Assembly: GCF_038051995.1 (NCBI RefSeq)
Contig: NZ_CP150290.1
Span: 5,012,001 to 5,076,000 of the forward strand
Direction: 5' to 3'
DNA length: 64,000 bases
Source of the DNA: Paenibacillus sp. FSL H8-0537
GTDB taxonomy: Bacteria; Bacillota; Bacilli; Paenibacillales; Paenibacillaceae
The position numbers and the translations under genes were made by a program. Below are positions 14,427-53,863 of this stretch, piece after piece. Within the stretch, counting starts at the first letter, position 1. Each line of letters opens with the position of its first letter. Under the pieces are notes generated by a model. The model made no database searches. It had not been told where the DNA came from and was given only the letters and a program-made list of their open reading frames with translations.

Positions 14427-14530
14427 CTTGAGGCAGCAGCATTTTTTTATTTTACTGCTAAAAGGTTTACAAATGAGCCATTAAGGTTTAATATATATCC
14501 CTAGCCGAATTCTGGCACTCTATTATTAAT

Positions 14531-14672
14531 CGCTTAATTTTTCAATTGAAAAAGCGGGGGAACCAACGACGTGATTGAAGCGACAGCTTGAATCGCAAGG
14601 GGTGAATCCGGTGCCTTCGCGCACTGGTAGGGCAGCTCTCTGGCCCGAATCCGACAGCTAACTCCGTAAGCG
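14531..14672 (+). promoter_or_regulatory. c-di-AMP riboswitch (ydaO/yuaA type)
   Basis: The closing helix CGCTTA (14531-14536) pairs with TAAGCG (14667-14672). Inside are the conserved segments GGGGGAACCAA, GGGGTGAATCC, GTAGGGCAGCTC and CCCGAATCCGACAGCTAAC, the pseudo-symmetric c-di-AMP aptamer signature. c-di-AMP binding normally turns expression off, usually of potassium transport, osmolyte or wall-hydrolase genes. No terminator is seen before the downstream ribosome site at about 14678, which begins only six bases past the aptamer, so control may act on translation initiation. Confidence 0.92.
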
Positions 14673-14691
14673 AACGTGAGGAGAGATGAAT

Positions 14692-33640: not shown

Positions 33641-33706
33641 GTTTCAACAAACGATGGCTGCCATCTTTAACACCTCCCTATCTCCCGTAGGTAATGCAGT
33701 GTATAG

Positions 33707-33876
33707 AATAAGGCAGGTCTCCTGGCTCCAGCATCATCATCGCTGCGCTCGCCTTCCCGGCATCATGCCAGTGGCTTTATTGCGCAGAACTCCGCTGTTA
33801 CAGTGGCGGGACCGCGCCGGTGTTGCACCGGACTTCCCTTTTAAGCTCAAGACGTGACGCAAGAGCACCTTATTCC
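33707..33876 (-). promoter_or_regulatory. Cobalamin riboswitch (metE)
   Basis: The minus strand carries GCCGGGAAGGCGAGCG, GCCACTG, the loop segment GGTCCCGCCACTGT and the B12 box AGCCAGGAGACCTGCC (33727-33712), closed by GAATAAGGTG/CACCTTATTC-type pairing. It is a textbook cobalamin aptamer acting by termination on metE. Confidence 0.97.
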
Positions 33877-33912
33877 TCGCTATTTAGTTGGTCAATCTTT
33901 ATTTATACTTTT

Positions 33913-36915: not shown

Positions 36916-37012
36916 ATGTGTACGCAGAAATAGACGGTTGCGCCAGCAAATAGACTGGTAGCAATCGCTTTCATTCGTACACCTATCCTTTCCGCGAAGG
37001 CACTGTGGTGCT

Positions 37013-37196
37013 GGAACGAGGTAGGTCTCCTGGCTAGCAGATCAACATTTTCCTTCGTCTTCCCCGGCTGCCCTAAAGCATAGGCCAAGTGACTCCTGCT
37101 GGTGAAGGAAAACTCCCTGATTACAGTGGCGGGACCGCTCGGGATTTGCACCCGATTCCCTGTTACCCTTTGACGTGCGCAAAGGCACCTCGTTCC
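37013..37196 (-). promoter_or_regulatory. Cobalamin riboswitch (cbiMNQO)
   Basis: The minus strand shows GGGTGCAAATCCCGAGCGGTCCCGCCACTGTA (in parts), GCCGGGGAAGACG and the B12 box AGCCAGGAGACCTACC, closed by GGAACGAGGTG and its partner CCTCGTTCC. It represses cobalt uptake when B12 is high. Confidence 0.97.
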
Positions 37197-37295
37197 ATGT
37201 CAATCCTCTTTATCATTCATTGGTCATTTTGTAGTTTGATCTTATCACAAAAGATTCAGGCTGTCCCCTATAAATGTAAATGGCCGAAATTTCTG

Positions 37296-52335: not shown

Positions 52336-53169
52336 TCATAACGTGTGGTTAATGATAGCATCAATAATCTTATCCCATTCGCAGTGATGAATTTCATGTC
52401 CTGAGCCCTCAAGGGTAAGCAGAAAGCTGCTTGGGATCGTGTTCGCAAGTGAAATTCCATGTTCATAAGGAATAATCGGGTCCTCTGTGCCGTGTATTAT
52501 GAGCGCGGGGACATCGATTTCAGCCGTTCTAGCCAAATAGGAAAAATCGCCTGTCACCACGCTATGATTGTTAATACTCCCCATATTGCTGCTTCTTTCT
52601 ACCTCTTGTTTAGCCAACTGATATACGCGATCCGCATCGAGTGGATGCTTTGAGCCCACTAGAACTCTCCACTTACTAACTGAAAAAGAAATGACAGCTT
52701 CATCATTAGACCAGTCGATCACTTCAGAATTAGCGAAAAATTGCGCCACCTTCTCTTCCATTGGAGGAAGACCCTCTGCAAAATTGGATGTTGCAATAAG
52801 CGAGACGGTAAGCACTCTTTCGCGATGACGCAGAGCGAGTATTTGCGTTAGCATGCCTCCCATAGACATACCGACGATATGCGCTTGCTTAATACTGTAA
52901 GCATCAAGTATACCAACCGCATCATCAGCCATATCTTCAAACTTATACCCCGGCTTCCCAAGCTCGTATACGGTAGAACGCCCAACATCGCGGTTATCAA
53001 AACGAATAACAAAACGTCCAGCAGCTGCAAGGCGCTGACAAAATTCATCTTCCCACCACACCATTGACGCTTGGGCTCCCATAACGAGCAAAAGAGCTGG
53101 ATCAGCAGGGTCCCCAAAGCTTTCCGTACATATTTTAACACCGTTAATGTTTAGTAGTTGTTCACTCAT
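52336..53169 (-). CDS. Alpha/beta hydrolase related to macrolide/anthracycline esterases (EstT/RdmC-like)
   Basis: A 277-residue cytoplasmic hydrolase. Nucleophile S102 in GMSMGG, Asp in HGTEDPIIP, His in GSGHEIHH; oxyanion region LLLVMGAQASMVWW. The stretch FDNRDVGRST with DMADDAVGILDAY is shared by the branch that contains aclacinomycin methylesterase RdmC and the macrolide esterase EstT, so a drug ester or lactone is a plausible substrate. Its message starts with a 58-codon leader frame and a terminator/antiterminator switch, typical of genes induced by ribosome-binding antibiotics. Substrate assignment is inference. Confidence 0.8.
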   Translation of the reverse strand: MSEQLLNINGVKICTESFGDPADPALLLVMGAQASMVWWEDEFCQRLAAAGRFVIRFDNRDVGRSTVYELGKPGYKFEDMADDAVGILDAYSIKQAHIVGMSMGGMLTQILALRHRERVLTVSLIATSNFAEGLPPMEEKVAQFFANSEVIDWSNDEAVISFSVSKWRVLVGSKHPLDADRVYQLAKQEVERSSNMGSINNHSVVTGDFSYLARTAEIDVPALIIHGTEDPIIPYEHGISLANTIPSSFLLTLEGSGHEIHHCEWDKIIDAIINHTL

Positions 53170-53170
53170 T

Positions 53171-53347
53171 TTATAATTCCTCCATTACTAAAAATAAAAA
53201 AACACAGGCCAGCTGCCTGTGCTTCCAGTAATCGAGAATAGGAGCAGCGGCTGACGCATCGTCAACCACTACTCGCATATAACTAAATAAGGTTACCATG
53301 AGGTAAACCATTCTCCGATTACTACGCACAGAACATAGCCGTAACAC
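53171..53347 (-). CDS. 58-codon leader peptide of the hydrolase attenuator
   Basis: GTG 53347 after AAGGA (11 bases), 58 sense codons, TAA at 53173-53171, one base before the hydrolase ATG. The frame covers the antiterminator and terminator completely. N-terminal MLRLCSVRSNRRM is basic; the C-terminal part ASAAAPILDYWKHRQLA followed by a Phe/Leu/Val run is shaped by the RNA arms and T run. This is the organisation of antibiotic-resistance leader peptides in Bacillota (for example bmrB before bmrCD), where a stalled ribosome changes RNA folding. A start at a later ATG is possible. Confidence 0.7.
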   Translation of the reverse strand: MLRLCSVRSNRRMVYLMVTLFSYMRVVVDDASAAAPILDYWKHRQLACVFLFLVMEEL

Positions 53348-53367
53348 GTCTATTCCATTCCTTGTGC
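53192..53367 (-). promoter_or_regulatory. Transcription attenuator (ribosome-mediated) of the hydrolase gene
   Basis: Three mutually exclusive pairings on the minus strand. Terminator: CACAGGC/GCCTGTG (53221-53203) plus T run. Antiterminator: CTGTGC..AGTAATCGGAGAA (53331-53311) with TTCTCGATTACT..GCACAG (53238-53217), which takes the left terminator arm and encloses two hairpins (GGTTTACC/GGTAACC and a 15-bp stem at 53274-53242). Anti-antiterminator: GCACA (53367-53363) with TGTGC (53330-53326), which encloses the leader start codon. A ribosome halted within the first codons would free the antiterminator. Confidence 0.75.
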
Positions 53368-53430
53368 AGAGCTAAAAATCGAAAAATTAGTTTAGCACAC
53401 GTAACCCTCCATTCCTATAAATTGGGTTTA

Positions 53431-53460
53431 TTTTATCATACGCGTTTTTTATCTGTCAAA
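53431..53460 (-). promoter_or_regulatory. Promoter of the hydrolase leader
   Basis: Minus-strand TTGACA (about 53459-53454) and TAAAAT (about 53435-53430), 18-base spacer. It gives a leader of roughly 260 bases before the hydrolase. Confidence 0.7.
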
Positions 53461-53494: not shown

Positions 53495-53863
53495 TTAAGT
53501 CATATTGTGCAAAGCTAGAACAGCAGCCTGTGTGTCCCGTAAAAACAATACCTGCTTACCATTATTGCATTCATAAATAAAATCTTTCAAGCTCTTGCTT
53601 TCATAGGTATCAAAATCTCCAACGATGGCCAGCTTAACCTTATAATTTACATATTTCTGTAAAATCTCGCCTGCAAGTCTGGTTTTGAGCTCAAAGAAAT
53701 CTTCCGTTATATTTTCTTTTTGCAGCAAAATTTTATGACATTCGTGATGGTAATTAACAGAAGCCATTAAATCCAGCGCATCTTGAACATTGCAAATAAT
53801 TAGATCCGGGCTTTCTATAACTGCAACTTTAGAGCTGCCTTGTTGGTCGATAGTTATGTTCAT
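53495..53863 (-). CDS. DUF4180 domain protein
   Basis: A 122-residue soluble protein matching DUF4180 over its whole length: NVQDALDLMASVNYHHECHKILLQKENITEDFFELKTRLAGEILQKYVNYKVKLAIVGDF (in parts) and DTQAAVLAL near the end. It resembles STAS-like or regulatory single-domain proteins; function unknown. A decayed second copy lies beyond the hydrolase. A sigma-A promoter for the hydrolase leader lies after its stop. Confidence 0.88.
   Translation of the reverse strand: MNITIDQQGSSKVAVIESPDLIICNVQDALDLMASVNYHHECHKILLQKENITEDFFELKTRLAGEILQKYVNYKVKLAIVGDFDTYESKSLKDFIYECNNGKQVLFLRDTQAAVLALHNMT

Follow-up and report, generated by a model that had tools for sequence, protein, structure and literature searches.

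The closest described counterpart of the leader analysed here appears to be, by analogy in mode of action, the VmlR attenuator of Bacillus subtilis, where translation of the upstream open reading frame (uORF) Met-Ile-Asn is needed for induction by lincomycin (PMC9226507). As described in that paper, the uORF has three codons and lies in the first stem-loop, and it is followed by an intrinsic terminator and a resistance gene. All of these features recur here, with Met-Leu-Asn in place of Met-Ile-Asn, but the target of the VmlR attenuator is an ABC-F protein and its inducer lincomycin, whereas the gene downstream here codes for a putative esterase. A related arrangement is given for rli80/hflXr of Listeria (PMC6310831), where a terminator, an antiterminator and an anti-antiterminator that overlaps the uORF are likewise combined, although the rli80 uORF has 14 codons with R-L-R and ours has three codons without it. 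The tlrB (yxjB) leader of B. subtilis also precedes a tylosin resistance gene, with attenuation relieved by a stalled leader ribosome, but it has nine codons with an RYR arrest motif and, according to PMC6851288, the stalled ribosome blocks the terminator directly.

The hflX leaders that we encountered differ from the present leader in the same way as rli80 (mostly 12–13 codons with R-x-R), yet those of the Paenibacillaceae match the same covariance model, which points to a kinship of the scaffold. Judged by its published description, this hflX branch is probably the uORFC-6-1 motif, for which 51 representatives, primarily before hflX, have been reported (PMC8632094). In contrast to that description, the scaffold is here also found before esterase, Mph, Erm, Cfr, Msr and other genes.

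The hydrolase encoded downstream is alike in enzyme family and catalytic residues to EstT/EstX and to BRB-1, PBB-1 and other Gram-positive macrolide esterases (PMC12704417). As reported there, six Gram-positive relatives raise the MICs for 16-membered macrolides, not for 14- or 15-membered ones, when expressed; S102, D230 and H258 were mutated, and the MIC tests were made under T7 and Pgrac promoters. The main text of that paper contains no occurrence of “attenuat”, “leader”, “uORF”, “riboswitch”, “terminator” or “untranslated”, and a search of the openly licensed literature (titles, abstract starts and passages) found no report on the regulation of macrolide esterases.

Organization of the locus

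The window, i.e. the whole 64,000 nucleotide stretch of Paenibacillus sp. FSL H8-0537 that was analysed, carries on its minus strand a leader of about 250 bases, located between a DUF4180 gene (53495–53863) and an alpha/beta-hydrolase gene (52336–53169). Its features are as follows.

53430..53459, minus strand: promoter of sigma-A type, TTGACA-N18-TAAAAT (pattern match; predicted transcription start about 53423)
53405..53410, minus strand: Shine-Dalgarno GGAGGG of the mini-ORF, within the box GGAGGG(G)TTACGTGTG (box kept in relatives)
53387..53398, minus strand: three-codon leader ORF GTG CTA AAC TAA, Met-Leu-Asn-stop (three-codon frame in 20 of 20 aligned leaders)
53377..53394, minus strand: segment A (UAAACUAAUUUUUCGAUU), anti-antiterminator strand overlapping the mini-ORF, partner of segment B (fold and alignment)
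53363..53372, minus strand: GCUCUGCACA, upstream partner of UGUGC in the off state (fold and alignment)
53310..53330, minus strand: segment B (UGUGC GUA GUAAUCGGAGAAU), common to the off helix (with A) and the antiterminator (with C) (fold and alignment)
53291..53309, minus strand: GGUUUACC...GGUAACC, off-state partner of the mini-ORF codons and the Shine-Dalgarno/start region (fold and alignment)
53243..53275, minus strand: variable spacer hairpin between B and C (fold and leader comparison)
53228..53239, minus strand: segment C (AUUCUCGAUUAC), antiterminator strand running into the terminator left arm GCACA 53222–53218 (alignment and fold)
53195..53226, minus strand: intrinsic terminator GGAAGCACAGGC-AGCTG-GCCTGTGTTTTT plus T-run (hairpin 53226–53198; 98.8% of cells paired in 20 leaders)
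53171..53347, minus strand: 58-codon GTG frame, ending one base before the hydrolase ATG (judged not to be the leader peptide)
52336..53169, minus strand: alpha/beta-hydrolase, putative macrolide esterase (NF052610, 441.9 bits, cut-off 420; Ser102, Asp230, His258)

An earlier, sequence-only reading of this DNA had described an antibiotic-responsive attenuator with a sigma-A promoter, an intrinsic terminator and an antiterminator. The promoter is where that reading had placed it (53459–53430, matching the consensus at 11 of 12 bases and carrying TG ahead of the -10), although the number of such patterns does not exceed that in shuffled sequences (1 found, 0.8 expected). For the intrinsic terminator, 1 was found where 0.2 were expected. 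The leader as a whole folds with -87.1 kcal/mol (z -6.2), and none of 200 shuffles folded equally well.

The hydrolase scores above the curated cut-off of the alpha/beta fold macrolide esterase family and matches the structures of EstT (11tu; 318 bits) and EstX (282 bits). Ser102, Asp230 and His258 (numbering as in PMC12704417) are invariant in 15 leader-bearing esterases. The drug esterase suspected from the sequence is borne out by these matches, and its identification as a putative 16-membered-macrolide esterase of the EstT/EstX kind is supported. In named genomes (best 80 of 311 loci) the nearest esterase, with 95% identity, is that of Paenibacillus algorifonticola XJ259.

Elsewhere, the window contains two cobalamin riboswitches (33695–33887 and 37003–37207, minus strand) and a c-di-AMP (ydaO/yuaA) riboswitch (14521–14687, plus strand).

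The conserved leader peptide

A DNA search of 99 relatives for the window locus gave matches in 32. Read in the leader direction, the box GGAGGG(G)TTACGTGTG is common to 28 of 30 fetched loci. Twenty leaders are of the esterase type: 19 are followed by an esterase gene (degenerate in some cases) and one, L012, by only a remnant. In all 20, the frame that begins with the second GTG consists of three codons and a stop (MLN, MVN, MIN, MAN, MLI or MID). The overlapping frame that begins with the first GTG (Met-Cys-stop in the window) varies between one and at least 30 codons across the aligned leaders and was rejected as leader peptide because its length is not kept.

A different frame had been favoured in the sequence-only reading, namely the 58-codon one starting at 53347, with a macrolide holding the ribosome in its first codons. 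That frame exists and its end, one base before the hydrolase ATG, is suggestive, but its role as a leader peptide did not survive comparison with related genomes: in L002, whose leader is 95% identical, it meets a stop after 40 codons. In addition, with a ribosome modelled on its start the antiterminator captured the left arm of the terminator with a value of just 0.01 (0.00 with the ribosome at codon 8). We consider this version highly improbable. By sequence comparison and modelling, the conserved leader peptide is the upstream Met-Leu-Asn mini-ORF with its strong Shine-Dalgarno sequence, not the 58-codon frame. The mini-ORF (53398–53387) overlaps the anti-antiterminator strand, and segment A (53394–53377) includes most of it. 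The arrest motif R/K-x-R/K of the erm and tlrB type does not occur in this Met-Leu-Asn uORF.

Competing RNA segments

The pairing of GCACA with TGTGC that had been noticed upstream of the antiterminator is present and competes with it, and the antiterminator captures the left arm of the terminator in the folds, as had been proposed. All three structures are kept in the 20 esterase-type leaders, with 91.6% of cells paired for the off state (30–46% when the alignment is slid), 90.3% for the antiterminator (33–51% when slid) and 98.8% for the terminator (14–63% when slid). The structure scored in these pair counts was chosen from the fold of the window, so that they lean towards that fold. Mutually exclusive off and on pairings were found together with an intrinsic terminator, the full-length equilibrium folds being less clear.

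For the off state, the esterase set gives weak covariation, and in the antiterminator not one pair shows compensatory changes within that set. When eight non-esterase leaders (seven hflX and one Mph) are added to the 20, the off helix has 27 cells changed on both sides compared to 12.9 in shuffles, with none of 500 shuffles as high, a count that is inflated by sequence kinship. RNAalifold returned only 11 pairs for the mixed alignment, because the hflX leaders differ inside the helix.

Strong conserved structure is also what a ligand-binding riboswitch that works without translation would display. The conserved Shine-Dalgarno sequence and mini-ORF, however, sit in the switching strand itself, and neither the window leader nor 16 related loci gave an Rfam match at gathering score (relaxed matches on the window leader had E-values of 0.12 to 4.5). 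A riboswitch of this kind seems to us very unlikely.

Folding with a ribosome footprint

With a ribosome footprint on the mini-ORF, each of the 20 esterase-type leaders lost A:B pairs (22.6–28.5 before, 1.6–12.9 after) and gained B:C pairs (1.0 or fewer before, 8.5 or more after). Of two control footprints, one lying 60 bases downstream of it and the other within the spacer, each raised B:C in one of 20. Masking had mixed effects in the eight non-esterase leaders, four of which (L023, L024, L025 and L028) form B:C pairs already without a ribosome.

The fate of the terminator depends on how much of the RNA is present. In full-length equilibrium folds with a ribosome it is still formed in most leaders: with the start codon in the P site two of 20 leaders give it a value below 0.5, with codon 3 in that site none does, and UGUGC frequently remains paired to its upstream partner despite the ribosome. 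In nascent folds, where the terminator consists so far of its left arm and loop, 16 of 20 leaders showed a capture of GCACA by UGUGC of at least 0.5 with a ribosome, and two did so without it; more than nine B:C pairs formed without a ribosome in five (L005, L012, L017, L020 and L021). For the window, capture of the left arm was 0.15 in the free RNA, 0.99 with the ribosome on the start of the mini-ORF and 0.98 with it at codon 3. As the terminator is kept at equilibrium but its left arm is captured in nascent folds, the mechanism would be a switch governed by the order of events, a timing suggested by these models.

We favour, and consider likely, a ribosome-dependent transcription attenuator with a tripeptide sensor, where induction would be by a drug. 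The attenuator foreseen in the sequence-only reading agrees with the alternative pairings kept in relatives and with the altered fold under ribosome masking in our models. After transcription has started from the promoter, a ribosome would bind at GGAGGG and translate Met-Leu-Asn-stop from the mini-ORF inside strand A. When no drug is present, the ribosome would finish and leave, A would pair with B, closing the Shine-Dalgarno sequence as well, and the left arm of the terminator would remain free, so that transcription stops ahead of the esterase. A ribosome held on the mini-ORF, presumably by a drug that prevents the first peptide bonds from forming, would mask A, and B would then pair with C. 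UGUGC would take the left arm GCACA before the right arm has been made, and the polymerase would read into the macrolide esterase gene.

Distribution of the leader scaffold

A covariance model of the 5' domain of the leader (R1), trained on 28 leaders (20 esterase-type, seven hflX and one Mph), matched 273 of 394 Paenibacillaceae genomes from 15 of 19 genera (E ≤0.01). In a sample of 398 genomes from the class, 77 had a match (E ≤0.01), and 27 of these belong to the Paenibacillaceae; in one of 398 genomes from the phylum, six had a match (E ≤0.001), including four from the Paenibacillaceae. The model detects both the esterase and the hflX leaders of the Paenibacillaceae, having been trained on both.

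Among the matches listed, 173 loci remained after the removal of six duplicates, with L206 (a 44-base match), L049 and L058 kept as “none”. The downstream gene codes for HflX in 75, the esterase in 53, Mph in 21 and Erm in 11 loci; there are two each of MFS, SDR and LmrB-like genes, single cases of Cfr, Msr, an RlmA-like methyltransferase and a Tet-like MFS, and three unclassified loci, so that 170 of the 173 precede one of eleven gene classes. Since the training set of R1 consisted of 28 of these leaders or their copies, the numbers of esterase and hflX loci cannot be taken as independent of it; the Erm, Cfr, Msr, SDR and MFS classes lay outside that set. Reference proteins were drawn from the leader loci and named via NCBIfam (plus Pfam). 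HflX, Cfr, Msr, Erm and SDR score above the curated NCBIfam cut-off, while Mph, LmrB-like, Tet-like, RlmA-like and the MFS of L082 are assigned by homology only, below the cut-off of the named family. The HflX proteins among these loci may confer resistance, as HflXr of Listeria does. A CACAGG-type terminator with a T-run lies between leader and gene in 133 of 170 loci.

In the folding model, ribosome occupancy of any cause flips the switch, as it would in a general sensor of translation or amino-acid starvation that does not respond to a drug. Against such a sensor, codons 2 and 3 of the mini-ORF vary (Leu, Ala, Val or Ile; Asn, Ile or Asp), and 165 of the 170 classified downstream genes among the matches listed belong to classes linked to drug resistance or ribosome rescue (esterase, HflX, Mph, Erm, Cfr, Msr, LmrB-like or RlmA-like). 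We regard a starvation sensor as improbable.

The view that an attenuator of this class would be unusual for an alpha/beta esterase is only partly borne out. The leader belongs to a family that serves many resistance genes, and in named genomes (best 80 of 311) it adjoins 36 of 80 esterase loci, being absent at the other 44. These counts leave out L284 and L285 (distant R1 matches more than 1 kb upstream), L311 (weak, E 0.0036) and weaker echoes on the opposite strand. The leader-bearing esterases of this set come from Paenibacillus, Cohnella, Brevibacillus, Shimazuella, Bacillus solitudinis and Halalkalibacter, among others. Within the Paenibacillaceae, too, such esterases occur without this leader: across 197 genomes of the family, the R1 leader is present at 19 of 38 esterase genes and absent at 19.

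Degenerate or missing esterase genes behind the leader were seen by eye in L086, L058 and L012, where the next gene is an MFS gene in L086 and a phosphotransferase-like gene in L012. In L213, the region upstream of the esterase resembles, also by eye, an eroded copy of the leader with its middle mostly missing.

uORF type and gene type

With uORF starts picked by their distance from GGAGG (a few being unreadable), a three-codon uORF was found in 52 of 53 esterase leaders and R/K-x-R/K in none, whereas the hflX leaders have R/K-x-R/K in 72 of 75 cases and a three-codon uORF in none. R/K-x-R/K is also present in 15 of 21 Mph leaders and eight of 11 Erm leaders; one Mph leader (L192) has a three-codon frame. 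The 36 leaders from named genomes (best 80 of 311), a set that overlaps with the 53 esterase leaders, comprise 29 with three codons, one with four and six with 13–14 codons without R-x-R.

Esterases that lack this leader may have another one. At six other Paenibacillaceae esterases without the R1 leader, a nine-codon uORF MII(K/E)FIRLR was recognised by eye, and many Bacillaceae esterases have a nine-codon uORF MIIKWVRLR or MII(K/Q)FIRLR about 100–145 bases upstream, a distance of about 110–130 for MIIKWVRLR (L286, L287, L291, L295, L299, L300, L302–L305, L311, L314, L316 and others). A short uORF is therefore not needed ahead of such an esterase, and a strict match of uORF length to drug, which we had considered, is weakened by these nine-codon R-x-R leaders and by the Mph leader L192. 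Since esterases also lie behind R-x-R sensors, and since tylosin is sensed in B. subtilis by a nine-codon RYR leader, the three-codon sensor may be tuned to drugs acting before residue four rather than to one class.

The probable inducing drug

The 16-membered macrolides allow only a few residues to be joined. We consider those of the tylosin and josamycin type the most likely inducers, as they are the substrates of those relatives of the enzyme that have been characterised; induction by lincosamides or pleuromutilins may also occur. Long side chains at C5 reach the peptidyl transferase centre, as stated in a review (PMC8150546). No paper on the blocking of a tripeptide by josamycin and tylosin was found in the openly licensed literature.

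The same attenuator might instead have start-codon or first-bond drugs (lincosamides, pleuromutilins, streptogramin A) as its natural inducers, with 16-membered macrolides playing a minor part or none. The closest studied uORF, Met-Ile-Asn of VmlR, answers to lincomycin (PMC9226507), and the uORFs given for the ABC-F genes CplR (MR[I/M]) and VmlR2 (MK[L/Q]) belong to genes directed against these drugs (PMC10201436). Against this, the esterase relatives raise MICs for 16-membered macrolides (PMC12704417), and a sensor blind to the substrate of its enzyme would be wasteful. We think this alternative rather unlikely, though far from negligible, and prefer the attenuator with 16-membered macrolides as main inducers.

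Implications of a shared scaffold

If the preferred attenuator is right, macrolide esterases are inducible, and the published MIC tests under T7 and Pgrac promoters (PMC12704417) may then miss their native behaviour. The new part is the tripeptide sensor on a macrolide esterase together with the use of the scaffold across many resistance genes; in titles and abstract starts of the openly licensed literature, neither a leader on such an esterase nor its sharing across gene types is described. Because, within one scaffold, the length and motif of the uORF go with the type of gene downstream, the leader family makes what a tripeptide uORF can sense a directly testable question.

A broader reading, which we put forward tentatively and hold to be possible rather than probable, is that Bacilli use one drug-sensing RNA chassis for about ten kinds of resistance gene and mainly exchange the uORF, with a three-codon sensor for first-peptide-bond drugs before macrolide esterases and longer R-x-R uORFs before hflX, erm and mph. 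The leader family could also serve as bait for resistance genes not yet recognised. An SDR oxidoreductase (PRK08263 subfamily) lies behind the leader in L182 and L184 (both Bacilli), with the uORFs MIDSSR and MIDFSR, and is a candidate resistance enzyme; if the broader reading is true, this SDR and the MFS genes behind the leader in L082 and L189 would be undiscovered resistance genes. In L066 (Paenibacillaceae), the gene behind the leader codes for a Cfr-type 23S rRNA methyltransferase (553 bits, cut-off 550).
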